A DNA stretch of 25,871 nt. It comes from Lachnospiraceae bacterium (GTDB lineage Bacteria > Bacillota > Clostridia > Lachnospirales > Lachnospiraceae). The notes under the pieces are model-generated. The model was not told where the DNA came from. It made no database searches and worked only from the letters and a program-made list of their open reading frames with translations. Positions 6,659 to 23,106 of the stretch are shown here, one piece after another. How positions within the stretch are numbered: the stretch's first letter is position 1; the number at the start of each line of letters is the position of its first letter. Made by a program: the position numbers and the translations under genes. The stretch lies in assembly GCA_900764225.1 (NCBI GenBank), contig CAAFNG010000184.1, positions 1 through 25,871 on the forward strand. The letters run 5' to 3'.

Positions 6659-8194
6659 ATGAGAGATTGGAAGAAGTGGCTTGCTGCTGGTTGCATGGCA
6701 GTATTGCTGGGGATTGGAACAATAGGGACTACAGCGATGGCGATGGGAGGCGGCGGAGTAGACCGAAGTGAGGCTGTTGCACAGGAAGAAAAAGTTCCTC
6801 TTGGAAAGGCAACACAGAGTTCCAGCTCCAGAGCGTGGAAAAAGATCAATGGGATCTGCTATAACGGAAGCGGACAGAAGCTGGAAGGAGCTATCACACG
6901 TGGAATTGATGTTTCGGAATGGCAGGATACCATTAACTGGGCTAAAGTGAAAAAGTCAAATATAGATTTTGCTTTTATACGTATTTCATATGGCCTGAAC
7001 AGGATCGATGAAAAATATGATTATAATATGAAACAGGCAGAAAAAGCAGGAGTACCGGCCGGAACATATGTGTATAGTCTTGCAACGACGACACAGCAGG
7101 CTCTGAAAGAGGCGCAGCTTGCAATCAGAAAAATGGATGGCTATAAGGTTTCCTATCCGGTTGTTTATGATATTGAATATAGCAGAATGCGCAGTTTATC
7201 TTCTTCACAGATTGCGAATCTGGCCAAGGCTTTTTGTAATGAAGTTAAAAAGGCCGGATACTATCCAATGATTTATTGTAATACAGACTGGTATGATAAT
7301 AAGATTGACTGGAGCAAGCTTACAGGCTATGATGTATGGCTTGCACGCTATGGCGACAGAATTATGGCACCGTCTATGAAAAACTATAAATATACAATAT
7401 GGCAGTCTACAGATGGAGATGGCGGCGGATATCTGAATTCTACCAAGGGGCTTGTTGCGGGAATTCCAAGCTATTCTACTGTAGATGTTGATTTCGGATA
7501 TGTGGATTATACAAAGATTATTACACCAAGATGGTCAGCGGTTAGTACTTATAAGGCATCGACAAAACCGGATACTGCTAATAGAAGAATTGGATGGTTT
7601 ACAGAAAACGGAAAAAAATTCTATTATCTTAATGGTTCAAAGAAGACAGGCTGGGTGGAAGTAAACGGAAAAAAATATTATGTTCATAAAACTCAGGGCA
7701 TGTATAAAAATAAGCTGATTACAGACTCAAAAAAAATAGTTCGATATGTGGATAAAAACGGAGTGCTTGTCAAGAATAAATGGATTACCGTAAATGGTAA
7801 AAAATATTATTTTGACAAAAATGGACATGCATTAAAAGGCATGAAAAAAGTTGGTGGCAATTATTACTACTTCCACACTGAAAAAGCCTACATGATGAAA
7901 AATACCAAATACAAAAACAGCAATGGTGATGTGTATTATTTTGAAAATAATGGAACCATGGCTAAAAGCGTATTCTATACATGGAAGGAAAACGGTAAAA
8001 GTAATACATATTATTTCACGGGAAATGGAAAAATGCACAGATCCTGGCTGACAAGAAATGGAAAAACATGTTGTTTTGACAAGACTACAGGAATTATGTA
8101 TAAAAATTGTACAGTTAAAATGAATGGAAGAACTTATACTTTTGATAAAGACGGAAGATATGTGCGACCAACACAGAAAAAGGATGAAAAATGA
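6659..8194 (+). CDS. Secreted GH25 muramidase with C-terminal wall-binding repeats
   Basis: GH25 enzymes cleave the MurNAc-GlcNAc beta-1,4 bond of peptidoglycan. Layout: signal peptide (about 1-30, with a glycine run after AMAM), GH25 barrel (about 80-290), and aromatic/glycine wall-binding repeats (about 310-500). Catalytic landmarks are visible: GIDVSEWQ with Asp84, and the DxE pair Asp171/Glu173 in VVYDIEYS. Several tracts match the family, such as YPMIYCN and TIWQSTDGDG. The tail is basic and rich in Lys, Tyr and Asn. The start has GGGAAGG eight bases upstream. The stop overlaps the start of the next gene by 4 bp (ATGA), tying this wall hydrolase to the biosynthetic genes behind it. The repeats resemble those of the L,D-transpeptidase upstream, which suggests a shared wall ligand. 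No phage genes are nearby, so an endolysin role is unlikely. Confidence 0.94.
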   Translation: MRDWKKWLAAGCMAVLLGIGTIGTTAMAMGGGGVDRSEAVAQEEKVPLGKATQSSSSRAWKKINGICYNGSGQKLEGAITRGIDVSEWQDTINWAKVKKSNIDFAFIRISYGLNRIDEKYDYNMKQAEKAGVPAGTYVYSLATTTQQALKEAQLAIRKMDGYKVSYPVVYDIEYSRMRSLSSSQIANLAKAFCNEVKKAGYYPMIYCNTDWYDNKIDWSKLTGYDVWLARYGDRIMAPSMKNYKYTIWQSTDGDGGGYLNSTKGLVAGIPSYSTVDVDFGYVDYTKIITPRWSAVSTYKASTKPDTANRRIGWFTENGKKFYYLNGSKKTGWVEVNGKKYYVHKTQGMYKNKLITDSKKIVRYVDKNGVLVKNKWITVNGKKYYFDKNGHALKGMKKVGGNYYYFHTEKAYMMKNTKYKNSNGDVYYFENNGTMAKSVFYTWKENGKSNTYYFTGNGKMHRSWLTRNGKTCCFDKTTGIMYKNCTVKMNGRTYTFDKDGRYVRPTQKKDEK

Positions 8195-10299
8195 AAAAAA
8201 TCGTAATCATCGGTGCGAATGATTTTCAGAGGCCGTTGATCCGCAAAGCAAAAAACATGGGTTATGAAACCCATGTTTTTGCCTGGCGGGAAGGTGCAAC
8301 AGGTGCCGCGGATGCAGACAGATTTTATGAAATCAGCATCACGGAAAAAGAGAAAATCTTAAGTATCTGTCAGAAAATTCAGCCAGATGCAGTGACAACG
8401 ATCGGATCAGATCTTGCTAATATCACAGTACAATACCTGGCAGAAAGACTGGGACTTCCGGGAAACAGTCATGAATGTATCATTAATTCGACCAATAAGT
8501 TTGCCATGCGAAATGCATTTCAGAAAGCGGGACTTCAAGTTCCGTTTTTTACAGCTGTGGGAAAAGATGAGAAGGTGATACCGCCTTCCTATCCGGTGAT
8601 TGTAAAGCCAACAGACCGTTCCGGAAGCCGTGCAATCACAAAAGTGGAATCATCGGAAGAACTGGAAACAGCTATTCAGCAGGCAATCGCTCAGTCTTTT
8701 GAAAAAAAGGCCATTGTGGAAGAATATATAAGTGGGGCAGAGTACAGTGTGGAAACCATCAGCTATCAGGGAGAGCACACACTTCTTGCTACCACAAAAA
8801 AATATACCACAGGAGAGCCGCATTATATAGAAGTGGGACACCTGGAACCTGCCCCCCTTTCCGGCGAGCTTCAGGATAAGGTAAAAGAAACCGTATTTGC
8901 GGCACTGACTGCTTTAAAGGTTGAGAATGGAGCCGGACACAGCGAGCTTAGGATCGATGAAAACGGAAATGTCCGGATCATTGAGATCGGTTCCCGTATG
9001 GGAGGCGACTGTATCGGATCGGATCTGGTGCCGCTTTCAACAGAGCAGGATTTTGTGGGAATGGTAGTGGATGTGGCAACTGGAAATCCGCCCCAAATAA
9101 AGCAGAACGCAGAGCAGCATGTGTCAGCGGTGCGTTTTATTATGAACCGACAGGATCTTGAAAAATTTCACTGGATAGAGGCCAATTATCCGGAGACTGT
9201 CCGTAAGACGGTTCTGGAAGGCGATGTAGAACATTGTCAGATCATAGACAGCGGAAGCAGACCGGGATTTTATATCCTTCAGACAGAAACAATGGAGGAG
9301 ATGAATCATATCCTGCACAGAGGACCACTGGAAAATCCGATCCAGCTGTTTGAGACACCGGTGCAGAGGCTGCGTATCCATGATGGGCGAAATACTTTTT
9401 ATATGAAGAGAGATGACCTGTTGCCATTCTCTTTTGGTGGAAACAAGGTGCGTTTTGCCCGCAAGTATGTGGAAAACATGCAGGCGGAAGGCTATGACAG
9501 CATGGTGATCTATGGGAATTATCATTCCAATCTCTGCCGGATCCTGGCAAGTCTCTGCAACGAGCTTTCCATTCCGTGCTACATGGTCCACAATACAGAG
9601 GATGTTAAAGAGACGAAGGAAACCGGAAACAGCCGGATTATCCGCAGAATGAATGTTCACGAAATTCCCTGTGAAAAGAAGAATATTGCAGCAGCCGTAC
9701 GAAAAGCAATGGCAGAGCTTACGGAAAAAGGCTTCCGCCCGTATTATATTTATGGAAATGAGTACGGACAGGGAAATGAATGGCCGCCGATGAAGGCCTA
9801 TGAGGAAGCCTACGAGGAGATCTTATCCTGGGAAAAAGCTTCCGGTACAAACCTAGACTATATTTTTCTGGCGTCAAGCACCAATGCAACGCAGTCAGGA
9901 CTGATGGCAGGAAAACTCCAGAACAAAGAGGACTGTAAGATCGTGGGAATTTCCGTTTCCAGAAATGCGAGCCGCGGAAAAGAAGTAATAGAGAACAACC
10001 TGCGTGAGTATGCAGAACGTTTTTCCATGGATTTTCCGGAGGACTGGGAAAAGGAGATCGAATTTACGGATTCCTATATGGAAGGCGGATACGGAGCCTG
10101 GTCAGAGCCTGTAGCTACGATGATCAGGAAAGTTTATGAGACCGATGGTGTGTATCTGGACATGACCTACACGGGAAAGGCTTTTTATGGCATGATGAAA
10201 TATCTTCAGGAAAAAAATATCCAGGGAAAAAATATTCTTTTTCTGCACACAGGTGGTCTGCCGTTATTTTTTGATTTTCTGGAGGATGAACGGACATGA
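8191..10299 (+). CDS. ATP-grasp ligase fused to a PLP enzyme of the ACC deaminase/D-cysteine desulfhydrase fold
   Basis: Two enzymes in one chain of 702 residues. Residues 1 to about 330 form an ATP-grasp domain: nucleotide-binding start KKIVIIGAND, lid segment VKPTDRSGSRA (138-148), and metal/substrate segment IEIGSRMGGD (264-273), as in carboxylate-amine ligases. Residues about 385-702 match fold-type II PLP enzymes: ETPVQRL, MKRDDL, then GGNKVR with the predicted PLP lysine at 419, YGNYHSN, the YTGKA motif, and LHTGG at 685-689. The ATP-grasp part probably activates a carboxylate for amide formation. The PLP part could eliminate, deaminate or racemise an amino acid that the ligase uses. 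Neither substrate can be read from sequence. It overlaps both neighbours by 4 bp. A perfect hairpin lies early in the coding region (8251-8280). Confidence 0.88.
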   Translation: MKKIVIIGANDFQRPLIRKAKNMGYETHVFAWREGATGAADADRFYEISITEKEKILSICQKIQPDAVTTIGSDLANITVQYLAERLGLPGNSHECIINSTNKFAMRNAFQKAGLQVPFFTAVGKDEKVIPPSYPVIVKPTDRSGSRAITKVESSEELETAIQQAIAQSFEKKAIVEEYISGAEYSVETISYQGEHTLLATTKKYTTGEPHYIEVGHLEPAPLSGELQDKVKETVFAALTALKVENGAGHSELRIDENGNVRIIEIGSRMGGDCIGSDLVPLSTEQDFVGMVVDVATGNPPQIKQNAEQHVSAVRFIMNRQDLEKFHWIEANYPETVRKTVLEGDVEHCQIIDSGSRPGFYILQTETMEEMNHILHRGPLENPIQLFETPVQRLRIHDGRNTFYMKRDDLLPFSFGGNKVRFARKYVENMQAEGYDSMVIYGNYHSNLCRILASLCNELSIPCYMVHNTEDVKETKETGNSRIIRRMNVHEIPCEKKNIAAAVRKAMAELTEKGFRPYYIYGNEYGQGNEWPPMKAYEEAYEEILSWEKASGTNLDYIFLASSTNATQSGLMAGKLQNKEDCKIVGISVSRNASRGKEVIENNLREYAERFSMDFPEDWEKEIEFTDSYMEGGYGAWSEPVATMIRKVYETDGVYLDMTYTGKAFYGMMKYLQEKNIQGKNILFLHTGGLPLFFDFLEDERT
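8251..8280. other. Perfect 13-bp inverted repeat inside the fusion gene
   Basis: AAAAACATGGGTT (8251-8263) pairs perfectly with AACCCATGTTTTT (8268-8280) around the 4-base loop ATGA. It lies 60-90 bases into the ATP-grasp/PLP coding region, just after the overlap with the GH25 gene. The 3' arm ends in five T residues, so it resembles a weak terminator or an attenuating RNA hairpin. The encoded residues (KNMGYETHVF) are ordinary for an ATP-grasp N-terminus, so it may have no function. Confidence 0.6.
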
Positions 10300-11483
10300 A
10301 AAAACTGATGATCTTGGGGGCAAGTTATTCACAGCTTCCACTTTATAAAATGGCGAAAAAACTTGGAGTTTCAACCGTTGCTGTGAGCACACCGGGAGAC
10401 TGGCCGTGTTTTGCGATCGCAGATGAATACTCTTACACGGATATTTCCGATCCGGAAGCTGTACTGAAAGCAGCCCGGGAGCATAACATTGACGGAATCA
10501 CAACCTGCTGTCTGGACGCAGGGATACGCTCCATAGGATATGTATGTGAGCATATGGGACTTAAGGGCTTATCCGAACAGGCCGGTTTTCTCTGCAGTGA
10601 CAAGTATTATATGAAGGAAGCCTTTGTAAAAGGTGGCGTGCGGTGTGCGAAGCATATCCGTATCCAGAGCCGGGAAGAACTTGAGAGCGCATTGGACCAG
10701 CTGGAATTTCCGGTGATCTTAAAGGCTGTGGATCTGATGGGAAGCAGAGGGCTTTTCCGCTGCGAGAACCGCGAGGAGGCACTTTCTCACTATCAGGATA
10801 CCATGGATGCCACGGGAAAAGATTACTGTTTGGTTGAGGAATTTATCCAGGGGCAGATGCTGGGCTGTGAAGCCATGATCTCGAACGGTAAGCTTCTGTT
10901 TTGCCTGCCGAACAATATCGAGAATTATCAGAGCCATGTTCCCACACCAATCGGCCATTCCGTGCCGTACCGGAAGCAGGATACGCTGGGAGCAGAAGTG
11001 GAACATCAGCTGAAGCTTGCGATTCAGGCACTTGGAATGGACAACTGCCCGATCAACTGTGACCTGATGGAGAAAGATGGAAAAATCTATGTGATCGAGA
11101 TCACCGGACGTGCAGGAGGAACCTGTCTGCCTGAGACAACGGGTATTTACTATGGAATCGACTATTATGAAGCAATCGTGCGGCTGGCCCTAGATATGGA
11201 AGCAGAGATCCTTTTCGAAAAAAAATCTCCACGCACAGCCAATCTTTCCCATATCCTGACCTCAGACAGGACAGGAATCCTGAAACAGATCCATAATGAC
11301 AACGAAATAACAGAAAATATCGTGGATCTTTCGTTTAATGTGGAGCCGGGAGAGGAGATCCGGAAGTACGAAAACGGTCGTGACCGTATCGGCCAGGTGA
11401 TCCTTAAGGGGAAAAATCTGGATGATTGCCAGCAGAATCTGGCAAAGGTTTTGTCGAAAATAAACATTGAATTTATATCATGA
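10296..11483 (+). CDS. Stand-alone ATP-grasp ligase
   Basis: An ATP-grasp enzyme of the carbamoyl-phosphate-synthase/amino-acid-ligase type, about 395 residues. Visible landmarks are the Rossmann-like start KKLMILGASYSQLPLY, the ATP-binding Lys143 in VILKAVDLMGSRG, the EEF segment in LVEEFIQGQ, and the metal/substrate loop VIEITGRAGG with Glu268. The C-terminal 90 residues form the usual extra beta domain. It is related to the N-terminal half of the preceding fusion protein but clearly diverged, so the two may add different residues or act in sequence. It overlaps the fusion gene by 4 bp, and GGAGG lies 10 bases before the ATG. The reaction expected is ATP-dependent joining of a carboxylate to an amine. 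With WecE in the same unit, the 4-amino group of a sugar is an attractive but unproven acceptor. Confidence 0.88.
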   Translation: MKKLMILGASYSQLPLYKMAKKLGVSTVAVSTPGDWPCFAIADEYSYTDISDPEAVLKAAREHNIDGITTCCLDAGIRSIGYVCEHMGLKGLSEQAGFLCSDKYYMKEAFVKGGVRCAKHIRIQSREELESALDQLEFPVILKAVDLMGSRGLFRCENREEALSHYQDTMDATGKDYCLVEEFIQGQMLGCEAMISNGKLLFCLPNNIENYQSHVPTPIGHSVPYRKQDTLGAEVEHQLKLAIQALGMDNCPINCDLMEKDGKIYVIEITGRAGGTCLPETTGIYYGIDYYEAIVRLALDMEAEILFEKKSPRTANLSHILTSDRTGILKQIHNDNEITENIVDLSFNVEPGEEIRKYENGRDRIGQVILKGKNLDDCQQNLAKVLSKINIEFIS

Positions 11484-11498
11484 TTGTGAGAGAATAAC

Positions 11499-11885
11499 AT
11501 GAGTAACCATGGAAATATAAAAAAAGGTCTTTTTCTGCTGCTGCACATCAGTCTTCTGTGCAGCTCACTGAGCGGTGTCTGCTCAAAAATGGCATCCAGA
11601 TATACGGACAATATTTTTTCATTACAGTTCATCTTCTGGTTCGGACTGGTATTTGTGATCATGTTCGGCTATGCCATTATCTGGCAGCAGATCTTAAAGA
11701 GGATGCCTCTGACTGTGGCCTATGCCAACAAGCCGGTCACACTGATCTGGGGAATCATCTGGGGAAAGCTGATCTTTGATGAGCGGATCACCTGGAACAT
11801 GCTTCTGGGAGCCTGCATTATTTTTGCGGGGATCTATCTGGTAACAGGCAGTGACGGAGAAGAAAACGGAGGGGAGCGCGTATGA
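11499..11885 (+). CDS. EamA/SMR-type four-helix membrane protein, first of a pair
   Basis: A 128-residue protein of four hydrophobic helices with the EamA/small multidrug resistance pattern. LTVAYANKPVTLIWGIIWG and GACIIFAGIYLVTG are typical of the third and fourth helices. Single-repeat EamA proteins act as dimers. In the Gram-negative Arn pathway a pair, ArnE and ArnF, flips undecaprenyl-phosphate aminoarabinose. The next gene encodes a second protein of the same type and starts within this gene's stop region (4 bp overlap), so a heterodimer is likely. The gene stands 15 bp after the ATP-grasp gene and shortly before an ArnC-like glycosyltransferase, which supports a lipid-linked sugar flippase over a drug exporter. 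Substrate is inferred from context only. Confidence 0.84.
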   Translation: MSNHGNIKKGLFLLLHISLLCSSLSGVCSKMASRYTDNIFSLQFIFWFGLVFVIMFGYAIIWQQILKRMPLTVAYANKPVTLIWGIIWGKLIFDERITWNMLLGACIIFAGIYLVTGSDGEENGGERV

Positions 11886-12226
11886 GTACACTGACAGGAG
11901 CCATATGTCTGCTTCTTGTTTCTGTGTTTATTTCTTCGGTATCCCAGATACTTTTGAAGAAAGCAGCAGACAGAACATATGAGAATCATCTCAGGGAATA
12001 CTTAAATCCACTGGTCATTTTTTCATACGGAATGTTTTTCTGTTCTGTGATACTGACCATGCTGGCTCTGAAGAAGGTTCCGCTTTCCATGCAGCCGATC
12101 CTGGAATCAACAGGATATATTTTTGTGGCTGTGATGGGATATATTTTTCTGAAGGAAAGACTGAACAGAAGAAAAATGGCAGGAATCGCACTGATCCTTG
12201 TGGGAATCATTATTTTTTCCCTGTAG
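11882..12226 (+). CDS. EamA/SMR-type four-helix membrane protein, second of a pair
   Basis: A 114-residue, four-helix protein of the EamA/SMR fold, with PLSMQPILESTGYIFVAVMG and the closing helix MAGIALILVGIIIFSL. It corresponds in size and position to ArnF. It is distinct in sequence from its partner, as expected for the two halves of a heterodimeric flippase. A GGAGGGG site lies seven bases before the ATG, and the start overlaps the upstream stop. It is followed after 31 bp by the GT2 gene. The most likely role is transbilayer movement of the polyprenyl-phosphate sugar made by that enzyme. Polyamine or drug export remains possible for the fold in general. Confidence 0.84.
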   Translation: MSTLTGAICLLLVSVFISSVSQILLKKAADRTYENHLREYLNPLVIFSYGMFFCSVILTMLALKKVPLSMQPILESTGYIFVAVMGYIFLKERLNRRKMAGIALILVGIIIFSL

Positions 12227-12257
12227 GCGGAGCGCCCTGTTTTAAGGAGAAAGAGAA

Positions 12258-13208
12258 ATGCTGGTATCAATCGTTATACCATGTTACAATTCTGAGCATA
12301 CCATTGGCGAGGTAGTAGAGCTTGCCATTGAGGAATTTAAGAAACTTGATAACTATGAATGTGAATTTGTGCTGGTCAATGATTATTCCAGGGATGGAAC
12401 CTGGAAGGCCATAGAAGCACTTGCTGATAAACATTCCAATGTAAAAGGTATTAATCTCGCCAAGAATTTCGGTCAGCATAACGCGATTATGGCGGCAATG
12501 TCCCAGGCAGAGGGTGAACTGATCGTGGGTATGGATGACGACATGCAGAATCATCCGTCACAGATCCCGCAGTTTCTGGCTAAGATGGAAGAGGGATACG
12601 ATATCGTATTCGGAGTATTTAAAGAGCGAAAATTTTCTGTGATGAAGAATATTACGGGAGCCATAAGCCGGTATCTTCTGTGGCATCTTCTGGACCGTCC
12701 GAAGGATATCCAGATGAGCAGCTTCTGGTGCTGCCGCAAATATGTGCGCGATGAGGTTGTGAAATACGACGGCTATAATATTTTTCTGCAGGTACTGTTT
12801 TTCCGTACTACGCACAATATCGCCAATATCGAGGTGGAGCATTTTGCAAGAGAGGTGGGAACCTCGAATTATAATTTCAGGAGAGGGCTGAAGCTTTTTA
12901 TGTCCTGCCTGAATTTTACTGTGATTCCACTGCGGGCAGCTACTATTTTTGGAACGGTATTTTCCGCTGCGGGCTTTATCGGAGCGATCATTGTTCTGAT
13001 CCGGAAACTGCTTGACCCGGCAATTGCGATTGGCTGGTCATCTCTGATGTGCGCTATGCTGGTATTTTTTGGCATCTGTTTTCTGATGCTGGGAATCATC
13101 GGAGAATATATCGGTAAGCTGATCCTGAATATCAACCGGACACCGCAGTATGTTGTACGGGATACCAGAAATATCGAAACGAAAGATAAAGAGGTAACAT
13201 ATGATTGA
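12258..13208 (+). CDS. ArnC/DPM1-like polyprenyl-phosphate glycosyltransferase (GT2)
   Basis: Inverting GT2 enzyme expected to move a sugar from a nucleotide donor to undecaprenyl phosphate on the inner face of the membrane. The GT-A domain starts at once (LVSIVIPCYNSE) and contains VNDYSRDGTW, NLAKNFGQHNA and the metal-binding DDD at residues 93-95 in GMDDDMQNHP. After about residue 225 come two membrane helices and the family's closing segment LGIIGEYIGKL followed by RTPQYVVRD, which closely recalls ArnC. AAGGAG lies before the ATG. The gene lies directly behind the EamA pair and overlaps the WecE gene by 8 bp, so dTDP-Fuc4N or a derivative is the likely donor. Bacillus CsbB and GtrB-type enzymes share the same fold and serve wall or O-antigen glycosylation. 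Confidence 0.92.
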   Translation: MLVSIVIPCYNSEHTIGEVVELAIEEFKKLDNYECEFVLVNDYSRDGTWKAIEALADKHSNVKGINLAKNFGQHNAIMAAMSQAEGELIVGMDDDMQNHPSQIPQFLAKMEEGYDIVFGVFKERKFSVMKNITGAISRYLLWHLLDRPKDIQMSSFWCCRKYVRDEVVKYDGYNIFLQVLFFRTTHNIANIEVEHFAREVGTSNYNFRRGLKLFMSCLNFTVIPLRAATIFGTVFSAAGFIGAIIVLIRKLLDPAIAIGWSSLMCAMLVFFGICFLMLGIIGEYIGKLILNINRTPQYVVRDTRNIETKDKEVTYD

Positions 13209-14331
13209 TTTTAACAGACCCGCATTTGTGGGGAAGGAGCTTTCGTATATAGAGGATGCCATACACAGAGGAATGCTCTGTGGAGATGGCGAATATACAA
13301 AAAAGTGTTCCCGCTGGATGGAGGAACGTTTTCATGTCGGACATGTAATGCTTACAACTTCGTGTACCCATGCGTTGGAGATGGCTGCGTTTCTGACGGA
13401 CATTCAGCCGGGCGACGAAGTGATCATGCCATCCTATACATTTGTATCCACTGCGGATGCCTTTGTACTGCGTGGAGCAAAGATCGTATTTGTGGATATC
13501 CGTCCGGATACCATGAATATCGATGAGAAACTGATCGAACAGGCAATCACAGACAGGACAAAGGTGATCGTGCCGGTTCATTATGCAGGTGTTGCCTGTG
13601 AGATGGACACGATCATGGATATTGCCAGAAAGCATAATCTGAAGGTAGTGGAGGACGCTGCCCAGGGGGTGGATGCTTATTATAAGGGACGTGCCCTTGG
13701 AACCATCGGGGATTTCGGATGCTACAGCTTTCACGAGACGAAGAATTATACCATGGGAGAAGGCGGTGCGGTACTTTTTAACGACGATGCCTATCAGGAG
13801 AAAGCAGAGATCCTCCGGGAAAAAGGCACAGACCGCAGCAAGTTTTTCCGGGGACAGGTGGATAAATACCGCTGGATGGACTATGGTTCATCCTATCTTC
13901 CAAGTGAGCTGAACGCAGCGTATCTCTATGCACAGCTGGAGGAGCACCAGAAAATAAGTGACAAGCGGATGGAAATCTATAATTTCTATAACCGTAACCT
14001 TGCGTTCCTGGCAGAGGAAGGTAAGATCGAGCAGCCTTATGTTCCGGAAGAATGTGAACATAATGCACATATGTACTATATAAAGGTACATGATATGGAT
14101 GTAAGGACAAGACTGATCAGGTATCTTCGCCAGAAAGAGATTGGCTGTGTATTTCATTATGTACCGCTTCACTCTGCACCGGCCGGTAAAAAATTCGGAA
14201 GATTTTCCGGAGAGGATGTTTATACCACAAAAGAAAGCGAGCGGCTGATGCGTCTTCCTATGTTTTACAATCTGGATATGGAGGATGCAAAAAAAGTTGT
14301 GGATGCGATCGTTTCCTTTGATGACTTCTGA
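13201..14331 (+). CDS. wecE: dTDP-4-amino-4,6-dideoxygalactose transaminase (WecE/RffA type)
   Basis: PLP-dependent sugar aminotransferase (DegT/DnrJ/EryC1/StrS family). It converts dTDP-4-keto-6-deoxyglucose to dTDP-4-amino-4,6-dideoxy-D-galactose (dTDP-Fuc4N) with glutamate as amino donor. From memory the sequence tracks the enterobacterial WecE closely along its whole length: IQPGDEVIMPSYTFVSTA, VFVDIRPDTMNIDE, VPVHYAGVACEMDTIM, FFRGQVDKYRW and GEDVYTTKESERLMRLP. The PLP lysine in SFHETKNY falls at residue 181, and the length of 376 also matches. This is a far tighter match than the general family, so product identity is fairly safe. It lies in one tight operon with the ArnC-like enzyme. 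The donor substrate requires RmlA and RmlB, which must be encoded elsewhere. Confidence 0.94.
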   Translation: MIDFNRPAFVGKELSYIEDAIHRGMLCGDGEYTKKCSRWMEERFHVGHVMLTTSCTHALEMAAFLTDIQPGDEVIMPSYTFVSTADAFVLRGAKIVFVDIRPDTMNIDEKLIEQAITDRTKVIVPVHYAGVACEMDTIMDIARKHNLKVVEDAAQGVDAYYKGRALGTIGDFGCYSFHETKNYTMGEGGAVLFNDDAYQEKAEILREKGTDRSKFFRGQVDKYRWMDYGSSYLPSELNAAYLYAQLEEHQKISDKRMEIYNFYNRNLAFLAEEGKIEQPYVPEECEHNAHMYYIKVHDMDVRTRLIRYLRQKEIGCVFHYVPLHSAPAGKKFGRFSGEDVYTTKESERLMRLPMFYNLDMEDAKKVVDAIVSFDDF

Positions 14332-15705: not shown

Positions 15706-16260
15706 ATGGGAAAAATCAAAGTTACACAGTGTGGAGATATTGAGGGACTTAAGGTTGTAGAGCCAACTGTATTTGGTGATGCAAGAGGATATTTTATGGA
15801 AACCTATAATTACAATGATTTCAGGGAAGCGGGAATTGATGTGGAGTTTGTACAGGATAATCAGTCCAGCTCTCACAAAGGTGTTCTTCGTGGCCTTCAT
15901 TTCCAGATCAACTTTCCACAGGACAAGCTTGTACGTGTGGTAAGCGGAGAAGTATTTGATGTTGCAGTTGATCTTCGCGAAGGCTCCAAAACTTATGGAA
16001 AATGGTTTGGCGTTGTTCTGTCTGCTGAGAATAAAAAACAGTTCTTTATCCCGAAGGGATTCGCACATGGGTTCCTGGTACTTTCCGAGCATGCAGAGTT
16101 TGTTTACAAATGCTCTGATTTCTATCATCCAAATGATGAGGGTGGTCTGATCTGGAATGACCCGGACATCGGAGTAGAGTGGCCGATTCCGGAGGGAATG
16201 GAATTAAGCTTTTCTGACAAAGATACAAAATGGGGAAGCTTTAAGGAGTACCGTAAATAA
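15706..16260 (+). CDS. rfbC: dTDP-4-dehydrorhamnose 3,5-epimerase
   Basis: Cupin-fold epimerase of the dTDP-L-rhamnose pathway. It acts on dTDP-4-keto-6-deoxyglucose, the same intermediate consumed by the WecE-type enzyme upstream. The 184-residue length is normal. Family signatures are present: DARGYFMETYN, VQDNQSSSHKGVLRGLHFQ with the catalytic His65, VRVVSGEVFDVAVDLR, the FIPKGFAHGF segment and FVYKCSDFY with the conserved tyrosine. AAGGAG lies nine bases before the ATG. The genes rmlA, rmlB and rmlD are not in the window. Its position at the head of the ABC exporter and glycosyltransferase set points to a rhamnose-containing exported polymer. Confidence 0.96.
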   Translation: MGKIKVTQCGDIEGLKVVEPTVFGDARGYFMETYNYNDFREAGIDVEFVQDNQSSSHKGVLRGLHFQINFPQDKLVRVVSGEVFDVAVDLREGSKTYGKWFGVVLSAENKKQFFIPKGFAHGFLVLSEHAEFVYKCSDFYHPNDEGGLIWNDPDIGVEWPIPEGMELSFSDKDTKWGSFKEYRK

Positions 16261-16277: not shown

Positions 16278-17090
16278 TTGAAAACGATTTTTTCTTTGCC
16301 AACAGACATTTATAAAAACAGAAGGCTGATCTTTAAGCTGGCTAAAAATGATTTCAAAACGAGATATGCGGGTTCCTATCTGGGCATCATCTGGGCTTTT
16401 ATTCAGCCGGTAGTTACGATTCTTGTGTATTGGTTTGTTTTTTCAGTGGGATTTCGTTCCGGTACCGGAAATCTTGGAGTGCCCTTTGTTCTGTATCTGG
16501 TAGCAGGTATTGTGCCGTGGTTTTTCTTTCAGGATGCACTGAATGGAGGAACTAATTCCATGCTGGAATATAATTATCTGGTAAAAAAAGTGGTATTTAA
16601 TATCAGTGTGCTTCCTGTAGTGAAGATTATTTCCGCATTTTTTGTGCATGCATTTTTTGTGCTGTTTACGATTGTTCTGTATGCGGCTTACGGGAAGTTT
16701 CCGGATGTGTATTATTTTCAGCTGATTTATTACAGCTTCTGTGTGTTTGTTCTTGTCCTGGGTTTAAGCTATGCAACAAGTGCTGTTGTTGTGTTTTTCA
16801 GGGATCTGACACAGATTATTAATATTGCACTGCAGGTTGGAATCTGGCTTACACCGATCATGTGGATCGCAGAAGAGTCTCTTCAGGGGCATGAGATACT
16901 TCAGAAGGTTCTGAAACTGAATCCTTTATATTATGTGGTTTCCGGATACAGAGATACCTTTATTATGAAATCCTGGTTTTTTGAGCATACAGGATGGACT
17001 GCATATTTCTGGGGATTTACGATTGTGTGCTTTCTGTTTGGCGGCTGGGTATTTAAGCGTCTGCGCATTCATTTTGCAGATGTACTGTAG
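16278..17090 (+). CDS. ABC-2 type polysaccharide export permease (Wzm/TagG family)
   Basis: Membrane subunit of an exporter that moves finished, lipid-linked polysaccharide (O-antigen, teichoic or rhamnan type) across the membrane. The 270 residues show an N-terminal amphipathic stretch and the family start (LIFKLAKNDFKTRYAGSYLG), about six membrane helices, and the characteristic LNPLYYVVSGYRD segment near the C-terminus. The start codon is TTG, supported by AGGAG ten bases upstream; no in-frame ATG nearby is better placed. The ATPase gene follows within about 25 bp. It acts in the pair Wzm-Wzt, and the downstream glycosyltransferases presumably build its cargo. Confidence 0.95.
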   Translation: MKTIFSLPTDIYKNRRLIFKLAKNDFKTRYAGSYLGIIWAFIQPVVTILVYWFVFSVGFRSGTGNLGVPFVLYLVAGIVPWFFFQDALNGGTNSMLEYNYLVKKVVFNISVLPVVKIISAFFVHAFFVLFTIVLYAAYGKFPDVYYFQLIYYSFCVFVLVLGLSYATSAVVVFFRDLTQIINIALQVGIWLTPIMWIAEESLQGHEILQKVLKLNPLYYVVSGYRDTFIMKSWFFEHTGWTAYFWGFTIVCFLFGGWVFKRLRIHFADVL

Positions 17091-17113
17091 AGAATGTGGA
17101 GGAAAGAAAAAAC

Positions 17114-18379
17114 GTGGAAAATAAAAATGCAATTCAGGTGAATCATCTCACCAAGATGTACAAGCTCTATGACAAGCCTTCTGACAGGTTGAAGGATGCG
17201 CTTGGACTTACGAAAAAAAAACTCTATCGTGAGCATTATGCACTTCATGATGTTAATTTTGACATTCATGAGGGAGAATGTGTGGGAATTATCGGAACCA
17301 ATGGTTCCGGTAAATCCACGATTTTGAAGATCATTACCGGCGTGCTGACTCCTACAGAGGGAGAAGTGAAGGTCAACGGACGTATCTCTGCTCTGCTGGA
17401 GTTGGGGGCCGGATTTAATATGGAATACTCCGGTCTTGAAAATGTGTATCTTAATGGAACCATGATCGGATTTTCAAAGGAAGAAATTGATGCCAGACTT
17501 GATGATATCCTGGAATTTGCAGATATTGGAGATTTTATTCACCAGCCTGTAAAAACATATTCCAGTGGTATGTTCGTGCGTCTGGCTTTTGCAGTTGCGA
17601 TCAATATTGATCCGGAGATTCTTGTAGTTGATGAAGCACTGTCTGTAGGAGACGTATTTTTTCAGTCAAAATGCTATCACAAATTTGAGGAATTTAAGAA
17701 ACAGGGCAAAACAATTCTGTTTGTAAGCCATGATCTGAGCAGTGTTTCCAAATACTGTGACCGTGTTATTCTGCTAAATAAAGGAAGAAAGCTGGATGAG
17801 GGTTCTCCGAAGCAGATGGTGGATCTTTATAAACAGCTTCTTGTAGGGCAGAATCCGGTGAAGCAGCAGGAAGAAAATGCAGAAAAATCCTCTGATGACA
17901 GAAAAAAGGGGAATTTTCAGTCCAATCCCAATATGCTGGAATACGGAAACCGAATGGCTGAGATCACAGATTTTGATGTGCTTGACGATAAAGGGATGCG
18001 CTCCAATACCATTGAGAAGGGCAGCAGTTTTAAAATCCGTATGAAAGTACGCTTCAATGAAACAATTCAGGAACCTATTATGGCCTACACCTTTAAGAAT
18101 ATCAAGGGAACTGAAATCACAGGAACCAATACTATGTTTGAAAAGACACATGTTGAAAGGTCCGATAAGAATGACGTATGTACAGTAACCTTTACCCAGG
18201 AGATGAATCTTCAGGGAGGAGAATATCTGCTTTCCTTTGGATGTACGGGCTATAAAGACGGAGACTTTACTGTGTTTCACAGACTGTATGATGCATGTAA
18301 TATTACAGTAGTTTCCGCAAAAAACACCGTGGGCTTTTTTGATATGAATTCCAGAGTAGAAATACAGTGCGAGGATTAA
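17114..18379 (+). CDS. ABC transporter ATPase with Wzt-type carbohydrate-binding C-terminal domain
   Basis: Nucleotide-binding subunit of the polysaccharide exporter. Walker A GTNGSGKS (Gly61, Lys67), signature YSSGM (150-153), Walker B with Asp173-Glu174 (VVDEALSVGD) and switch His206 are all intact. After about residue 245 comes a linker and a beta-rich C-terminal domain of about 140 residues resembling Wzt-C, which in ABC-dependent O-antigen systems recognises the capped non-reducing end of the chain. I prefer GTG 17114, giving 421 residues, with GGAGG 11 bases upstream. The in-frame GTG at 17096 has no ribosome binding site. It is followed after 2 bp by the methyltransferase-kinase gene, whose product is a candidate for making the cap. 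Confidence 0.94.
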   Translation: MENKNAIQVNHLTKMYKLYDKPSDRLKDALGLTKKKLYREHYALHDVNFDIHEGECVGIIGTNGSGKSTILKIITGVLTPTEGEVKVNGRISALLELGAGFNMEYSGLENVYLNGTMIGFSKEEIDARLDDILEFADIGDFIHQPVKTYSSGMFVRLAFAVAINIDPEILVVDEALSVGDVFFQSKCYHKFEEFKKQGKTILFVSHDLSSVSKYCDRVILLNKGRKLDEGSPKQMVDLYKQLLVGQNPVKQQEENAEKSSDDRKKGNFQSNPNMLEYGNRMAEITDFDVLDDKGMRSNTIEKGSSFKIRMKVRFNETIQEPIMAYTFKNIKGTEITGTNTMFEKTHVERSDKNDVCTVTFTQEMNLQGGEYLLSFGCTGYKDGDFTVFHRLYDACNITVVSAKNTVGFFDMNSRVEIQCED

Positions 18380-18381
18380 AT

Positions 18382-20571
18382 ATGGGAGAAAAAATTGGAA
18401 AGGTATTTCTGGATACCACTTATTATCCGGGAGAGGATTTATACAGCGATGGGGCTATTGAGGATGAAATGCTCTCTATTGCCCAGAACTATATGCCAGA
18501 AGAGTTTAATCGTGTGATTGCCGAAAGGGAAAGCTGGCCGATTCTGTATCATTTTTCTCATATCCGGGAGAACATTTTAAGCTGGGTTCCGTTTAAAGGT
18601 GATGAGAAGGTTCTGGAAGTTGGTGCAGGTTGTGGTGCAGTTACCGGTGCGCTCTGCCGGAAAGCAGGTGAAGTAACAAGTATCGATCTTTCCATGAAAA
18701 GAAGCCGTATCAACGCATACAGACACAGAGACCAGGAAAATCTTAAGATTCTTGTGGGAAATTTCCAGGAAATAGAGAAAAATCTTACAGAGAAATACGA
18801 TTACATTACGCTGATCGGTGTATTTGAGTATGGAGAAGCCTACATTCAGAGTGCTGATCCTTATGTGGATTTTCTGAAAATTATTTCCAGACATCTGAAA
18901 CCGGACGGAAAGATCATTCTTGCCATTGAGAACCGTCTGGGGCTGAAGTACTGGGCAGGCTGTACAGAGGATCACTTTGGTACATTGTTTGAGGGGCTGG
19001 AAGGATATCCCAGAACAAAGGGGGTCAAAACCTTTACCAGAAAGGAATTTGAGCAGATACTGAAAGAAGCTGGCAATCTTAAGGCGTCCTGGTATTATCC
19101 GTTTCCGGACTATAAATTTCCAATGACTGTATATTCCGAGGAATATCTTCCAAAAAAAGGAGAACTGAACCGGACAGAATATAATTTCGACCGTTTCCGT
19201 CTGCAGCTGTTCCAGGAATCGCCGGTTTATGATACACTTCTTGATAATGATCTGTATCCGGAATTTGCCAATTCTTTTCTTCTTATGATCGGCAGAGAGA
19301 AGCCGGATGTGGAGACGATATTTACCAAGTTTTCCAATGAAAGAGACAGGGATTTTGCCATCCGGACAGAAATCGTTTCCGGAAATAATGAGCGTATTGT
19401 AAAAAAAGTTCCGGAGACAAAGGAAGCTGGGAAACATGTATGCAATCTGGATAGAATCTATCAGGAGCTGGGAAAACTTTATGAGCAGGCCGGAATCTGT
19501 GTAAACCGTTGTCAGGTGAAGAAGAACACAGCAGAGTTTGAATATCTTACAGGAATCACGCTGGAAGAAAAACTGGATACACTTCTTAAAAACGGAAAAG
19601 AAGATGAGGCAGAAGAATTACTTTTTTCTTATATTGAGAAAATCAGAGAGATTCATGAGAAGGAAATATTTCATAAGACGGCAGAGTTTGTGGAGGTGTT
19701 TGGAGATGCAAAACTGCCGGAAAATCTGAAAAGTGCGCCGTTTTCCAATATTGATTTTGTTCCGTCTAATGTAATCCTGGATAGAGAGGAAACCACGGTG
19801 ATTGATTATGAATGGACGTTCTTTTTCCCGATTCCTTCGAATTTTCTGGTGTATCGCATGATTCATTATTATCTGGAAAGTGATGGAAAAAGAGAAGGTC
19901 TGAAGGGGCGTGAGTTTTACCGGAAAGCAGGACTTACAGAAAATGAATGCCGCATTTATCAGAATATGGAAAAGAATTTCCAGAAATACATGCTGGGAAA
20001 TCATAATTCGATGCTGAGCCTCTACCCAAAAATTTCTCCGGGTAAGGCAGATGCAGTACAGTTCTATGAGGAAAAAAAGTTCGAAGAAGCTCAGATGTTG
20101 CAGGTTTTCTGGGATACAGGCAGCGATTTTACAGAAGAAAATTCCAAAAAATATCCTGTAAAAAACAAAAGAATCAGTGCAGGGATATCTTTTCCGGAAC
20201 ATACGCGGAGATTACGCCTCGATCCGGGCGAACTGAGAACGGGCATTCATATAAACAGGATGAACTGGGAAGATGGTACTCCCGCAAAATTTTATACAAA
20301 TGGCAGCAGCATTGGCGGAGAGGTATATTATTTCGGCGGAGGGGATCCTCAGTTTGTTATTGCTGAAATTCCTGCAGGCTCCGGGAAACTGGAGATTCAG
20401 TTGGAATTTGTAAGTGAAAGAGAAGCAGGTCAGAAATTCTGGGAAAAATATAAAAAGAGAGAGCAAAAGCTTTTTCAGTCAGCAGAAGAGATGGAGAAAA
20501 GAGAGAAAAAAGAAGAGCTTATGAGAAAAAGTATATTATGGCGGGCATACTGTAAACTCAAAAAAATATAA
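18382..20571 (+). CDS. Methyltransferase-kinase-coiled coil protein, candidate chain terminator (WbdD-like layout)
   Basis: Residues about 60-310 are a class I SAM methyltransferase (motif I VLEVGAGCGA at 77-86). Residues about 330-525 look like an aminoglycoside-phosphotransferase-type kinase: SNIDFVPSN gives Asp458 and Asn463, and VIDYEW gives Asp475. The usual His of HxD is Asn456. A beta-rich module (about 590-680) and a charged helix likely to form a coiled coil (KKREQKLFQSAEEMEKREK, about 685-725) follow. The E. coli O9a protein WbdD has the same order: methyltransferase, kinase, coiled-coil ruler. It caps the polymannose chain before Wzm-Wzt export. Its place right behind a Wzt with C-terminal domain makes a capping and length-control role likely. 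The start is ATG 18382, with GAGG seven bases upstream; GTG 18367 lacks a site. Confidence 0.85.
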   Translation: MGEKIGKVFLDTTYYPGEDLYSDGAIEDEMLSIAQNYMPEEFNRVIAERESWPILYHFSHIRENILSWVPFKGDEKVLEVGAGCGAVTGALCRKAGEVTSIDLSMKRSRINAYRHRDQENLKILVGNFQEIEKNLTEKYDYITLIGVFEYGEAYIQSADPYVDFLKIISRHLKPDGKIILAIENRLGLKYWAGCTEDHFGTLFEGLEGYPRTKGVKTFTRKEFEQILKEAGNLKASWYYPFPDYKFPMTVYSEEYLPKKGELNRTEYNFDRFRLQLFQESPVYDTLLDNDLYPEFANSFLLMIGREKPDVETIFTKFSNERDRDFAIRTEIVSGNNERIVKKVPETKEAGKHVCNLDRIYQELGKLYEQAGICVNRCQVKKNTAEFEYLTGITLEEKLDTLLKNGKEDEAEELLFSYIEKIREIHEKEIFHKTAEFVEVFGDAKLPENLKSAPFSNIDFVPSNVILDREETTVIDYEWTFFFPIPSNFLVYRMIHYYLESDGKREGLKGREFYRKAGLTENECRIYQNMEKNFQKYMLGNHNSMLSLYPKISPGKADAVQFYEEKKFEEAQMLQVFWDTGSDFTEENSKKYPVKNKRISAGISFPEHTRRLRLDPGELRTGIHINRMNWEDGTPAKFYTNGSSIGGEVYYFGGGDPQFVIAEIPAGSGKLEIQLEFVSEREAGQKFWEKYKKREQKLFQSAEEMEKREKKEELMRKSILWRAYCKLKKI

Positions 20572-20597
20572 AGCTGAATCACAAGAGGGCTGTGACC

Positions 20598-23105
20598 ATG
20601 ACAAAAATATTCAGAAAATTGGAAAATCAGAAATATGACAGTATGAATTCTCATACCCTGATCCTGACAGGATGGGTTGGCGATACCCAAAAAGGAAGAG
20701 GGACTTTTGTTTTAACAGGAGATGGAAAAGAACTTTTTCAACTGGAACCGGAATATGTTTCCAGACCAGATGTATCAAAAAATCTGAGCAGATTCGGTGA
20801 AATAAAAGCAGCAGGATTTATTCTGAAAATACCGGAAATTCTGAATCTGGCAAAACAGTATAAAAAGATCGGACTGTTTCTGAAAATGGGAGACAGTAAG
20901 GTTGTTCTTTGGAATGCAGATGCTGATAAATTAAAAAATTTCTGCATGGAAAGTCTTCTGGAATATTGCATTGACCGGGCACAGATCATGGAAAATAATG
21001 AACTTCTGGTTGAAGGCTGGGTTCTGGATGAGACGAATAATGCAGAAGTTGCAGTTGAGGATCAGGCCGGACGACCTCTGAAATGTACAGTCACAAGAGG
21101 TCGGAGACCTGACGTGGAAGATAATAAGGGAATCCGGATACAGGGAGACTCTGAAATAGGCTTTACTGTCAGAGCAGATCTGAATAAATTATCAGTCAGG
21201 AATATTTTTATCTGTTTCAGTGGCAGAACAGTGTTAAAAAAATATAAGGTCAATATTTCTGATCTGAGAAAAAAAGATTCCGTTATATATCAGAGAATGA
21301 AGCTTCTGAGACTGCGTAACGGAAGAAAAAATCTGTCTTACATCAGGAAAAACGGACTGAAAAACTTTATCCGTTATATTGGGACATATCAGCCGGAAAG
21401 ACTTTCTCAGAACTATGAAATATGGCTGAAGACTCATTCAGCTGACAAAAAAGAACTGAAAAAACAGAGAGAAACAGTATTTTCCGAAATGCCTCTGATC
21501 AGTATTGTGATTCCCATGTATAATACCCCACAGGAATATCTGAAAGAACTGCTGGATTCCGTTAGTGTCCAGTCATATGAAAACTGGCAGCTCTGTCTTG
21601 CTGACGGAAGCGAAGATGATGCAATCAAAGATTTTCTTGAGAAAAAATACAGAGAAGAAAAACGGATCGTATACAGAAAACTCAAAGAAAACAAAGGAAT
21701 TTCAGAGAATACAAATGCGGCAATAGAAATGGCTTCCGGTGAATATATTATGCTTTGTGATCATGATGATATACTTGCTCCGGATGCGCTGTTTCATATC
21801 GCGAAAGCTTTCACCGAAAAAAATGCAGATGTCGTTTATACGGACGAAGATAAAATCAGTATGGATGGAAAACATTATTTTGAGCCAAATTTCAAGCCGG
21901 ATTTCAATCTGTTCCGTCTTCGGGAAAATAACTATATCTGCCATATTTTTGCTTTTAAAAAGAGCTTACTGGAACAGGTTGGAGCTTTTCGAAAAGAATA
22001 TGACGGGGCGCAGGATTTTGATCTGATTCTCAGATGCTGTGAGCAGGCAGAAAAGATCGTGCATATACCAAGGGTTCTGTATCACTGGAGGAGCCACATG
22101 AATTCTACAGCTGCAAATCCGGAAAGCAAAAGATATGCTTTTGAAGCAGGAAAAAAGGCGATCGAAGATCATTATCACAGAATGGGAATCCGGGCAGAAG
22201 TAGAAATGACAAAATATCCGGGATGGTACCGAAGCAGGATAGCGATTGCCGGCGAACCTTTAATTTCCATTATTATTCCGAACAAAGATCATATTGATGA
22301 TCTTGATCTGTGTATAAGCTCCATTGAAGAAAAATCCACATGGAAGAATTACGAGATCCTTGTAGTTGAAAACAACAGTGAAGATAAAAAAACTTTTGCA
22401 TATTATGAAGAACTTCAGCGAAGATATGAGAATGTAAGGGTAATTACCTGGAAAAAAGAATTTAATTATTCAGCTATCAACAATTTCGCAGTGAGAGAAT
22501 CCCAGGGAGAATATCTGTTGTTTTTAAATAATGATGTGGAGATCATCACACCGTCCTGGATGGAAGAAATGCTTCAGATCTGTCAGCAGCAGGGCGTGGG
22601 AATTGTGGGCGCGAAGCTGTATTATCCGGATGATACGATTCAGCATGCAGGGGTTGTGATCGGACTTGGAGGAATTGCAGGTCATGTTATGTGTAAAGCT
22701 CCGGCACAGGAAATCGGATATATGGGACGTCTGATCAGTGTGCAGGAGATCAGTGCTGTTACAGCAGCATGTATGATGGTAAAAACTTCTGTATTCCGAA
22801 GAACCGGCGGATTTGATGAAAAGCTTAAAGTGGCATTTAATGATATTGATCTGTGCATGCAGGTGCGAAGTATGGGCGAAAAGATCGTGTTTACCCCCTA
22901 TGCTGAACTGTATCATTATGAGTCAAAATCCAGAGGGATGGAAGACACTCCCGAGAAGATAGCACGTTTCAACAGGGAAGTAAACTGTTTCAAGGATAAA
23001 TGGAAAAAAGAACTTCTGGCAGGAGATCCCTATTACAGTCCGAATCTGACTCTGAAAGCAGGAGACTGTTCCCTGCAAAAAATGGAAGAAAGAAATGAGG
23101 AGTAA
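20598..23105 (+). CDS. Tandem-domain GT2 glycosyltransferase, copy A
   Basis: Polymer-building enzyme with two GT2 domains and N-terminal beta modules, 835 residues. Residues 1 to about 215 hold two beta-rich modules that share an R-P-DV...GF pattern. GT2 domain 1 begins at Pro299 (PLISIVIPMYN) and has DHDD at 388-391, then YDGAQDFDLILRC and LYHWRSH. GT2 domain 2 begins at Pro554 (PLISIIIPNKDH) and has NND at 644-646 in place of DxD, as in WbbL-like rhamnosyltransferases. Two active sites fit a polymerase that adds two linkages in alternation, perhaps rhamnosyl units given rfbC. ATG 20598 is preferred: AGAGGG lies eight bases upstream and is too close to the GTG at 20592. The next gene is a paralogue. 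Sugar and linkage cannot be read from sequence. Confidence 0.9.
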   Translation: MTKIFRKLENQKYDSMNSHTLILTGWVGDTQKGRGTFVLTGDGKELFQLEPEYVSRPDVSKNLSRFGEIKAAGFILKIPEILNLAKQYKKIGLFLKMGDSKVVLWNADADKLKNFCMESLLEYCIDRAQIMENNELLVEGWVLDETNNAEVAVEDQAGRPLKCTVTRGRRPDVEDNKGIRIQGDSEIGFTVRADLNKLSVRNIFICFSGRTVLKKYKVNISDLRKKDSVIYQRMKLLRLRNGRKNLSYIRKNGLKNFIRYIGTYQPERLSQNYEIWLKTHSADKKELKKQRETVFSEMPLISIVIPMYNTPQEYLKELLDSVSVQSYENWQLCLADGSEDDAIKDFLEKKYREEKRIVYRKLKENKGISENTNAAIEMASGEYIMLCDHDDILAPDALFHIAKAFTEKNADVVYTDEDKISMDGKHYFEPNFKPDFNLFRLRENNYICHIFAFKKSLLEQVGAFRKEYDGAQDFDLILRCCEQAEKIVHIPRVLYHWRSHMNSTAANPESKRYAFEAGKKAIEDHYHRMGIRAEVEMTKYPGWYRSRIAIAGEPLISIIIPNKDHIDDLDLCISSIEEKSTWKNYEILVVENNSEDKKTFAYYEELQRRYENVRVITWKKEFNYSAINNFAVRESQGEYLLFLNNDVEIITPSWMEEMLQICQQQGVGIVGAKLYYPDDTIQHAGVVIGLGGIAGHVMCKAPAQEIGYMGRLISVQEISAVTAACMMVKTSVFRRTGGFDEKLKVAFNDIDLCMQVRSMGEKIVFTPYAELYHYESKSRGMEDTPEKIARFNREVNCFKDKWKKELLAGDPYYSPNLTLKAGDCSLQKMEERNEE
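22213..23055 (+). repeat. Divergent tandem duplication: 3' half of GT2 copy A, repeated in copy B
   Basis: This segment, encoding GT2 domain 2 of copy A, matches about 24655-25498 in copy B along its full length. Both proteins run in register from PGWYRSR to NLTLK. DNA identity is high but interrupted. The longest exact runs I noticed are about 20-24 bases, for example TCCTGGATGGAAGAAATGCT and TATGAGTCAAAATCCAGAGG. The spacing is about 2.44 kb. The 5' halves of the two genes are much less alike. Confidence 0.85.
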
Positions 23106-23106
23106 C

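Follow-up and report, generated by a model that had tools for sequence, protein, structure and literature searches.

The 25,871-base stretch analyzed here (the window; contig CAAFNG010000184.1 of a Lachnospiraceae bacterium) is a Blautia-like piece of chromosome. It shares 80-87% DNA identity with contig L001 of Blautia schinkii MSK.6.26 in four blocks, and its proteins are colinear with those of L001 at 71-99% identity, with the exception of GT2b (47% over 161 residues at the L001 end). Six open reading frames (ORFs) at 8191-14331, each overlapping or almost overlapping its neighbors, form the cassette that is the subject of this work:

8191..10299, + strand: fusion of an ATP-grasp ligase (FUS_N, residues 1-375) and a pyridoxal phosphate (PLP) fold-type-II domain (PALP, about residues 380-697), from Pfam, motifs, a model, and fold and PDB sequence matches
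10296..11483, + strand: second ATP-grasp ligase (LIG2) with a LAL_C2 domain, from Pfam and a PDB 4dim match
11499..11885, + strand: EamA/SMR-type small membrane protein 1 (EamA1, ArnE-like), putative flippase subunit, from Pfam/NCBIfam and lysine/arginine (K/R) bias
11882..12226, + strand: EamA/SMR-type small membrane protein 2 (EamA2), putative flippase subunit, from Pfam/NCBIfam and K/R bias
12258..13208, + strand: ArnC/PgfS-like GT2, putative undecaprenyl-phosphate (Und-P) amino-sugar transferase, from Pfam, NCBIfam and PDB matches
13201..14331, + strand: WecE, dTDP-4-amino-4,6-dideoxygalactose transaminase, from NCBIfam (638 bits vs a cut-off of 375)

The cassette is real, conserved and modular. 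Its most likely role is to produce an amino sugar, link it to a small acid (probably an amino acid), and export the product on a lipid to decorate a wall polysaccharide. The original prediction for this stretch had proposed a lipid-linked module and suggested co-occurrence across genomes as a check, and the genes do travel together. With the fusion protein as sole query, 47 loci were gathered; the counts use the 34 with at least 4 kb of flank on each side, and the 13 with short flanks were left out. Within 6 kb of the first ligase, WecE was present in 26 of these loci, GT2 in 28, an EamA protein in 25, all three in 22, and LIG2 in 14. Two further loci had WecE about 7 kb from the first ligase, and six (L007, L037, L038, L039, L043, L045) had no WecE in the available stretch. 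In an order sample of 196 genomes, centered on and including G001, the first ligase occurred in 4 genomes and WecE above its cut-off in 23. All four ligase genomes carried WecE (Fisher test, 1.5e-4), less than 4 kb away in three and 53 kb away in G139.

The association was also present within the genus. Among 64 genomes, WecE was found in 51, LIG2 in 33, and the first ligase in 22. LIG2 occurred only in genomes with WecE (33/33, p 1.6e-5), and the first ligase only in genomes with LIG2 (22/22, p 2.4e-9). LIG2 was within 5 kb of WecE in 27 of 33 genomes, on another contig in four, and far away in two, while the first ligase was within 1.5 kb of LIG2 in 20 of 22 and on another contig in two. Beyond the genus LIG2 is rare (2 of 391 genomes of the class, G001 included). 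Chance clustering of the cassette genes was ruled out by the locus counts, the distances and the Fisher tests.

Two ATP-grasp proteins had been predicted, and both assignments stood, except that the first protein is a ligase-PALP fusion whose PLP half had been missed. The FUS_N half is an L-amino-acid-ligase-type ATP-grasp. The L-amino acid ligase fold and the conserved Glu/Glu/Arg stretch expected of an ATP-grasp enzyme are present, and its closest solved relatives include the L-amino acid ligases 3vot (BL00235) and BacD. LIG2 scored 53 bits against the LAL_C2 cut-off of 29.4 (Pfam) and is a full-length relative of PDB 4dim (E 3e-110, residues 2-391), deposited under the title phosphoribosylglycinamide synthetase; BacD ranks after 4dim. 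The PALP half has the fold of D-cysteine desulfhydrase and 1-aminocyclopropane-1-carboxylate (ACC) deaminase, with the motifs GGNK (PLP lysine) at residue 416, SN at 446, YTGKA at 660, and HTGG at 686. We examined 126 PALP members, comprising 13 window-type fusions, 8 LIG2 fusions and 105 free proteins among the matches listed. GGNK and SN were present in all 126, HTGG in 124, and YTGK[AG] in 122. The residue following SN was Leu in 124 of 126 members vs His in four aligned PDB chains. PALP scored below every curated cut-off of the NCBIfam models listed (TIGR01275, 139.3 vs 289.4 bits, with the other equivalogs further below).

PALP was not confined to the first ligase. At least eight other proteins among the 120 matches listed were LIG2-PALP fusions (54-57% identity in the LIG2 part, 51-58% in the PALP part), and a free-standing PALP adjoined GT2 and LIG2 in six loci. 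Fusion to the first ligase or to LIG2, or a place alone beside both GT2 and LIG2, suggests that all three parts serve one product. Smaller variants were also observed: proteins P0105 and P0106 carry the first ligase with a PLP-domain remnant of about 100 residues, G207 has one TAA within the first-ligase frame, and L026:3138-4721, close to the first ligase, GT2 and WecE, encodes a second ATP-grasp whose C-terminal part is GNAT-like.

These enzymes bear on the nature of the acyl group. ATP-grasp enzymes as a class accept many carboxylates, and the known PALP relatives, D-cysteine desulfhydrase and ACC deaminase, release keto acids. The ligases could thus acylate the sugar with a hydroxy or keto acid to give a neutral product, as in N-acetylation. 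We regard such a non-amino-acid acyl group as unlikely, given the L-amino acid ligases among the closest solved relatives and the LAL_C2 domain of LIG2.

The genus loci show how the cassette varies. Most loci have it at one site, bounded by the CdaA-YbbR-HPr-YkuD-GH25 genes on one side and RmlC-Wzm-Wzt on the other; L118 and L136 place it elsewhere, and L109, L110 and L112 have other downstream genes. The window type joins a PALP-fused first ligase with LIG2. L018 and L115 have a first ligase without PALP plus LIG2; LIG2 is fused to PALP in L105 (with another ATP-grasp) and L106 (without), and stands alone in L107, L108 and L116. In L109-L114, GT2 and EamA are accompanied by a diverged LIG2 and a free PALP. 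A third ATP-grasp (LIG3, about 432 residues), recognized in retrieved stretches only and not by a genome-wide search, comes with its own GT2 and EamA pair near WecE in 10 of the 18 genus genomes that have WecE without LIG2. Five of the remaining genomes were scorable and had neither ATP-grasp nor GT2, and three were cut by contig ends. A protein of about 321 residues stood alongside LIG3 in nine aligned loci (e.g., L129:5911-6876; alignment A5). It matched no Pfam or NCBIfam family, and its best PDB profile match (E 0.016) was an unrelated protein. From its motifs we had considered it a fold-type-I PLP enzyme, which a WecE profile comparison left unconfirmed (probability 1.5%, E 0.033). In L128, L134, L140 and L141, WecE occupies the wall site with no GT2, EamA or ATP-grasp, so its product must be used otherwise there.

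GT2 followed the ligases. It was present in 32 of 32 scorable genus loci with an ATP-grasp vs 0 of 5 scorable WecE loci without one (p 2.3e-6 if the genomes are taken as unrelated). The test took in 23 of the 33 LIG2 genomes (L001, L003, L018, L105-L124) and all 18 with WecE and no LIG2 (L125-L142). L123, L137 and L138 (contig ends) and L139 (upstream cut) were left out, as were L143 and L144, which are the WecE regions of two LIG2 genomes; L133 was included with a GT2 that is cut short by the edge of its retrieved stretch. WecE was about as similar between ligase types as within them, with a mean identity of 0.78 within LIG2-type loci and 0.77 between LIG2 and LIG3 types. Mean GT2 identity was 0.71 within the LIG2 type, 0.77 within the LIG3 type, and 0.31 between them. 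The corresponding values were 0.66, 0.71 and 0.33 for EamA1, and 0.66, 0.72 and 0.37 for EamA2. In each WecE-identity bin of at least 0.70, same-type GT2 means were 0.63-0.95 vs 0.31-0.36 for different types. The diverged LIG2 loci had an intermediate GT2, at 0.52 to the LIG2 type and 0.29 to the LIG3 type. Ligase type and lipid transferase are therefore exchanged jointly with WecE conserved, and the putative flippase tracks them only in part. Most simply, the ligase product would be the GT2 substrate, and the flippase would be less choosy.

A second line of evidence came from sister WecE sites. A GNAT of one family was present at 9 of the 23 order-sample WecE sites (retrieved stretches). In all five scanned of these nine, the best NCBIfam match was PseH, a model for 4-amino-4,6-dideoxysugar N-acetyltransferases, at 52-83 bits (below the cut-off of 93.1). 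At L086:5438-6943, an ArnC-like GT2 is fused to a PseH-like N-acetyltransferase beside WecE. An ATP-grasp lay beside or near WecE at 4 of the 23 sites (L001, L080, L084, L085), and the GNAT at none of these four. The weak GNAT match of L088 (22.7 bits) and the WecE-like sites below cut-off with ATP-grasp and GT2 (L102, L103) were left out of these counts. No GNAT of this family was found in L001-L047, and none was labeled in L105-L144. A PseH-like GNAT at sister sites without ATP-grasp suggests that the 4-amino group is acylated either by the ligases or by the N-acetyltransferase, one standing in for the other. Joint exchange and sister-site GNAT together tie the ligases to the sugar-lipid step by comparative genomics, in line with the original prediction.

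The sugar itself can be predicted with some precision. WecE scored 633 vs 434.85 and 638 vs 375 bits (TIGR02379 and NF008687), so far above the curated cut-offs that dTDP-4-amino-4,6-dideoxygalactose (dTDP-Fuc4N) would be the expected sugar. RmlA and RmlB were above cut-off in all three relatives searched. In G002, about 150 bases separate the end of RmlB (C3:111654-112676) from the first ligase (C3:112829), and RmlA (C3:120286) lies 3' of the ligase in the same locus. Several non-Blautia loci (L019, L031, L042; by similarity 9 of 47) also carry a short-chain dehydrogenase/reductase of about 339 residues near WecE and the ligase; the L019 protein is related to dTDP-glucose 4,6-dehydratase and scores below its cut-off.

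The best PDB matches of the GT2 were ArnC chains, followed by sll0501. By homology, it is a membrane-linked GT-A transferase of Und-P sugars of the transmembrane-glycosylation type; it scored 164 bits against the ArnC equivalog cut-off of 529 (NF007986). The EamA proteins also stayed below the ArnE and ArnF equivalogs (39.8 and 34.8 vs 92; 27 vs 99 bits), and EamA2 matched no SMR structure in the PDB up to E 0.1. A crude hydropathy count gave a K/R bias of +1 for EamA1 and -4 for EamA2 in the window. The bias of EamA1 was positive in 32 of 34 relatives counted, and the two proteins were opposite in 27 of 34 pairs by the same crude count. The account of PMC8035078-type systems below names other flippases; here the putative flippase is the EamA pair in place of GtrA or Wzx, and GtrA was found at sister WecE sites. 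In PMC9574504, opposite bias is given as the hallmark of SMR subunits that work in pairs, and ArnE/F are described as glycolipid flippases that occur chiefly in Proteobacteria.

Resemblance to ArnC, ArnE and ArnF, together with the looser tie of the EamA pair to ligase type, would fit a true Arn logic in which the species flipped and transferred is plain Und-P-Fuc4N, its amine still free, and the ligases act later or on another step. The PseH-like N-acetyltransferase at other WecE sites, once fused to GT2, points instead to acylation before transfer, and ligase and GT2 are exchanged jointly. We rank this alternative last, as quite improbable.

The acceptor was approached through the surroundings of the cassette, which sits among RmlC, Wzm/Wzt and glycosyltransferase genes in a locus for wall polysaccharide. 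On the upstream side, Pfam identified CdaA, YbbR, HPr, a YkuD protein, and a GH25 that has choline-binding repeats. Downstream, after an S11 carboxypeptidase, are:

15706..16260, + strand: RmlC of the dTDP-rhamnose branch (256 bits vs 155.75)
16278..17090, + strand: Wzm-type ABC-2 permease for polymer export (Pfam/NCBIfam)
17096..18379, + strand: Wzt-type ATPase with Wzt_C (Pfam)
18367..20571, + strand: methyltransferase-domain protein (Pfam)
20592..23105, + strand: double GT2 glycosyltransferase, presumably for backbone synthesis (Pfam)
23095..25542, + strand: double GT2 glycosyltransferase (Pfam); a YfhO GT-C comes next in the genome of L001, a place that here falls past the window end

In L001's genome, the two double GT2 proteins and YfhO are followed further on by a WbaP-type transferase and an LCP protein. 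YfhO was present in both relatives scanned (L048, L050) and by similarity also in L013 and L014, and L050 carries an RmlA-type nucleotidyltransferase, RmlD and YfhO. Outside Blautia, polytopic DUF6056 (L029, L033) or DUF2142 (L027, L080) proteins adjoin the module, and we read these as GT-C enzymes. Ruminococcus gnavus, of the same family, makes a rhamnose-rich wall-anchored polysaccharide, according to the part of PMC12413058 used here. From this polysaccharide and the YfhO, WbaP-type, LCP and Rml neighbors, the acceptor is probably a rhamnose-containing wall polymer.

A terminator scan for operon borders was set aside. It gave 18 terminator-like sites in 6400-16300 vs 7.2 in shuffles, and 16 of the 18 lay inside genes, so the scan was no help for this purpose. 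Positions 6-24, at the contig start, carry what we take to be letters of the Tn5/Nextera sequencing adapter, and the N-terminus of the first window ORF (10-24) derives from it.

Based on these gene identities, we propose the following pathway. WecE would convert dTDP-4-keto-6-deoxyglucose to dTDP-Fuc4N. Next, one or both ATP-grasp ligases would couple a carboxylic acid (an amino acid being the likeliest) to the Fuc4N 4-amino group through an amide bond; two ligases could build a dipeptidyl group or offer a choice of two acyl groups. The PLP domain may make or convert a dedicated acyl building block. GT2 would transfer N-acyl-Fuc4N to undecaprenyl phosphate, the EamA pair would flip the lipid-linked sugar, and a YfhO-type GT-C, encoded next to the site in relatives and outside the window, would add it to the ABC-exported rhamnose-containing wall polymer. 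We lean toward this pathway as a whole, at somewhat better than even confidence, on a case drawn from sequence comparison. Direct observation covers the genes' identities, their co-travel, the way ligase type and GT2 type are swapped together next to a conserved WecE, and the PseH-like N-acetyltransferase at other WecE sites; from these we infer that the ligases act on Fuc4N, which acyl group they add, in what order the steps run, that the lipid-linked sugar is flipped, and what the acceptor is.

Several observations weigh against this pathway. The Fisher values ignore the relatedness of the genomes. Three FUS_N loci (L038, L039, L043) show none of WecE, GT2 or EamA, and a LIG2 relative in G357 (L145) occurs without WecE, next to a major facilitator superfamily transporter, an opine-type dehydrogenase and another ATP-grasp of sugar-transfer type. 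Neither ligase family is therefore bound to amino sugars, and some relatives of both lie in loci without amino-sugar genes, a situation that bears on the possibility, raised at the outset, of ligases acting on unrelated substrates. At five Blautia loci, WecE is in use and the module is missing; L125 keeps the EamA pair without GT2 or ATP-grasp, and L138 shows GT2 and EamA without ATP-grasp up to its contig end. In L109-L114 the EamA pair is nearer to LIG3 loci (0.59, 0.65) than to LIG2 loci (0.33, 0.35). Ten of the 23 order-sample WecE sites have neither GNAT nor ATP-grasp, the exclusion of the two is not significant alone (0/4 vs 9/19, p 0.13), and G139 has both enzymes at separate sites, the GNAT by WecE and the first ligase with GT2 elsewhere. 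The GT-C partner was seen only in relatives.

The G357 neighborhood resembles a small-molecule cluster. Together with the three partnerless FUS_N loci and the dipeptides made by known L-amino acid ligases (PDB structure titles), it fits ligases that only happen to share the locus, their product being a small molecule, a free dipeptide or something peptide-like, that is secreted or attached elsewhere. We consider this distinctly unlikely, as ligase type shifts with GT2 type and not with WecE, and GT2 is absent from all five scorable WecE sites that lack a ligase. The N-acylation pathway can also be taken further than the evidence for its steps. In this extended form, the ligase's fused PLP domain produces a dedicated amino acid, probably a non-standard one, which is coupled to the Fuc4N 4-amino group, either singly or within a dipeptide, carried on Und-P and displayed on the wall. 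Exchangeable acyl modules, either the N-acetyltransferase or one of three ATP-grasp types with its matching GT2, would then switch polymer charge and identity between related species around a fixed WecE. We offer this extension tentatively, as possible and still doubtful.

The cassette resembles the Arn system up to the flip and is not an Arn member. As predicted, it has the parts of a lipid-linked Fuc4N module (WecE above cut-off, an ArnC-like GT2, an EamA pair). The predicted likeness to Arn therefore holds for the parts and fails for membership: the ArnC and ArnE/ArnF equivalog cut-offs were missed, and no ArnA-, ArnD- or ArnT-type Pfam domain was found in the 19 window ORFs scanned, the rest of the genome not being searched. 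The cassette would use a dTDP-6-deoxy sugar and a wall polymer where Arn uses a UDP-pentose and lipid A. Arn chemistry includes a transient formylation, whereas permanent N-acylation is expected in the cassette. In enterobacterial common antigen synthesis, Fuc4NAc goes straight onto the lipid-linked repeat. The cassette is like this WecE/WecD route in its WecE above cut-off and in the sister-site PseH-like GNAT in a WecD-like role, and unlike it in having a GT2/EamA lipid carrier and ATP-grasp ligases. Amino-acid-acylated Qui4N occurs in O antigens of Shigella dysenteriae type 7. Compared with the L-amino acid ligases BL00235 (3vot) and BacD, identity is 23% over the structural alignment, and the acceptor in the cassette is expected to be a sugar amine. 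PALP differs from D-cysteine desulfhydrase and ACC deaminase (4d8t, 7ysk, 1j0a) in its scores below curated cut-offs, the Leu after SN, and its fusion to ligases. Shared with Arn (ArnB, ArnC, ArnE/ArnF, ArnT), in the sections of PMC9574504 used here, are a 4-amino sugar, an Und-P carrier, an ArnC-like GT2 and two SMR-type subunits.

We place the cassette with multi-component transmembrane glycosylation, as a variant whose ATP-grasp ligase probably N-acylates the amino sugar ahead of lipid loading. Gram-positive systems of this kind described in the part of PMC8035078 used here include CsbB/GtcA/YfhO, CsdAB/CflA acting on lactococcal rhamnan, and GacI/GacK/GacL. Like these, the cassette combines a GT-A-fold Und-P sugar transferase with a wall locus that has rhamnose genes; a small membrane protein pair is the putative flippase, and YfhO, seen in relatives, is the candidate GT-C partner. 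The systems in Table 1 of that paper use Glc, Gal, GlcNAc or unknown sugars with GtrA or Wzx flippases, whereas the cassette would use a 4-amino sugar, has an EamA/SMR pair in the putative flippase role, and adds ATP-grasp ligases. The Campylobacter jejuni capsule enzyme Cj1438, a GT2 domain joined to a TupA-like ATP-grasp domain (PMC11800379), likewise couples an ATP-grasp amide ligase to a GT2 for a surface polysaccharide, and there amidation precedes glycosyl transfer. In Cj1438, unlike the cassette, the sugar supplies the carboxylate, the amine is serinol-P or ethanolamine-P, and the GT2 is a polymerizing one, with no lipid-linked monosaccharide in the portion of PMC11800379 used here. No described pathway with this gene set was found in a literature search, most subscription journals being outside its reach; PMC4869667 and PMC6124807 were of no help on this point.

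Herein, the core idea of the original prediction survives and is strengthened, and the ligase-PALP fusion and the exchange of modules are new points. If the proposed pathway is true, gut Lachnospiraceae would have a further chemistry for decorating the wall, in addition to D-alanylation and plain sugar side chains. It would also give functions to two ATP-grasp families, one of them with the solved structure 4dim, and to one PLP subfamily. The exchangeable modules would make wall chemistry predictable from sequence.

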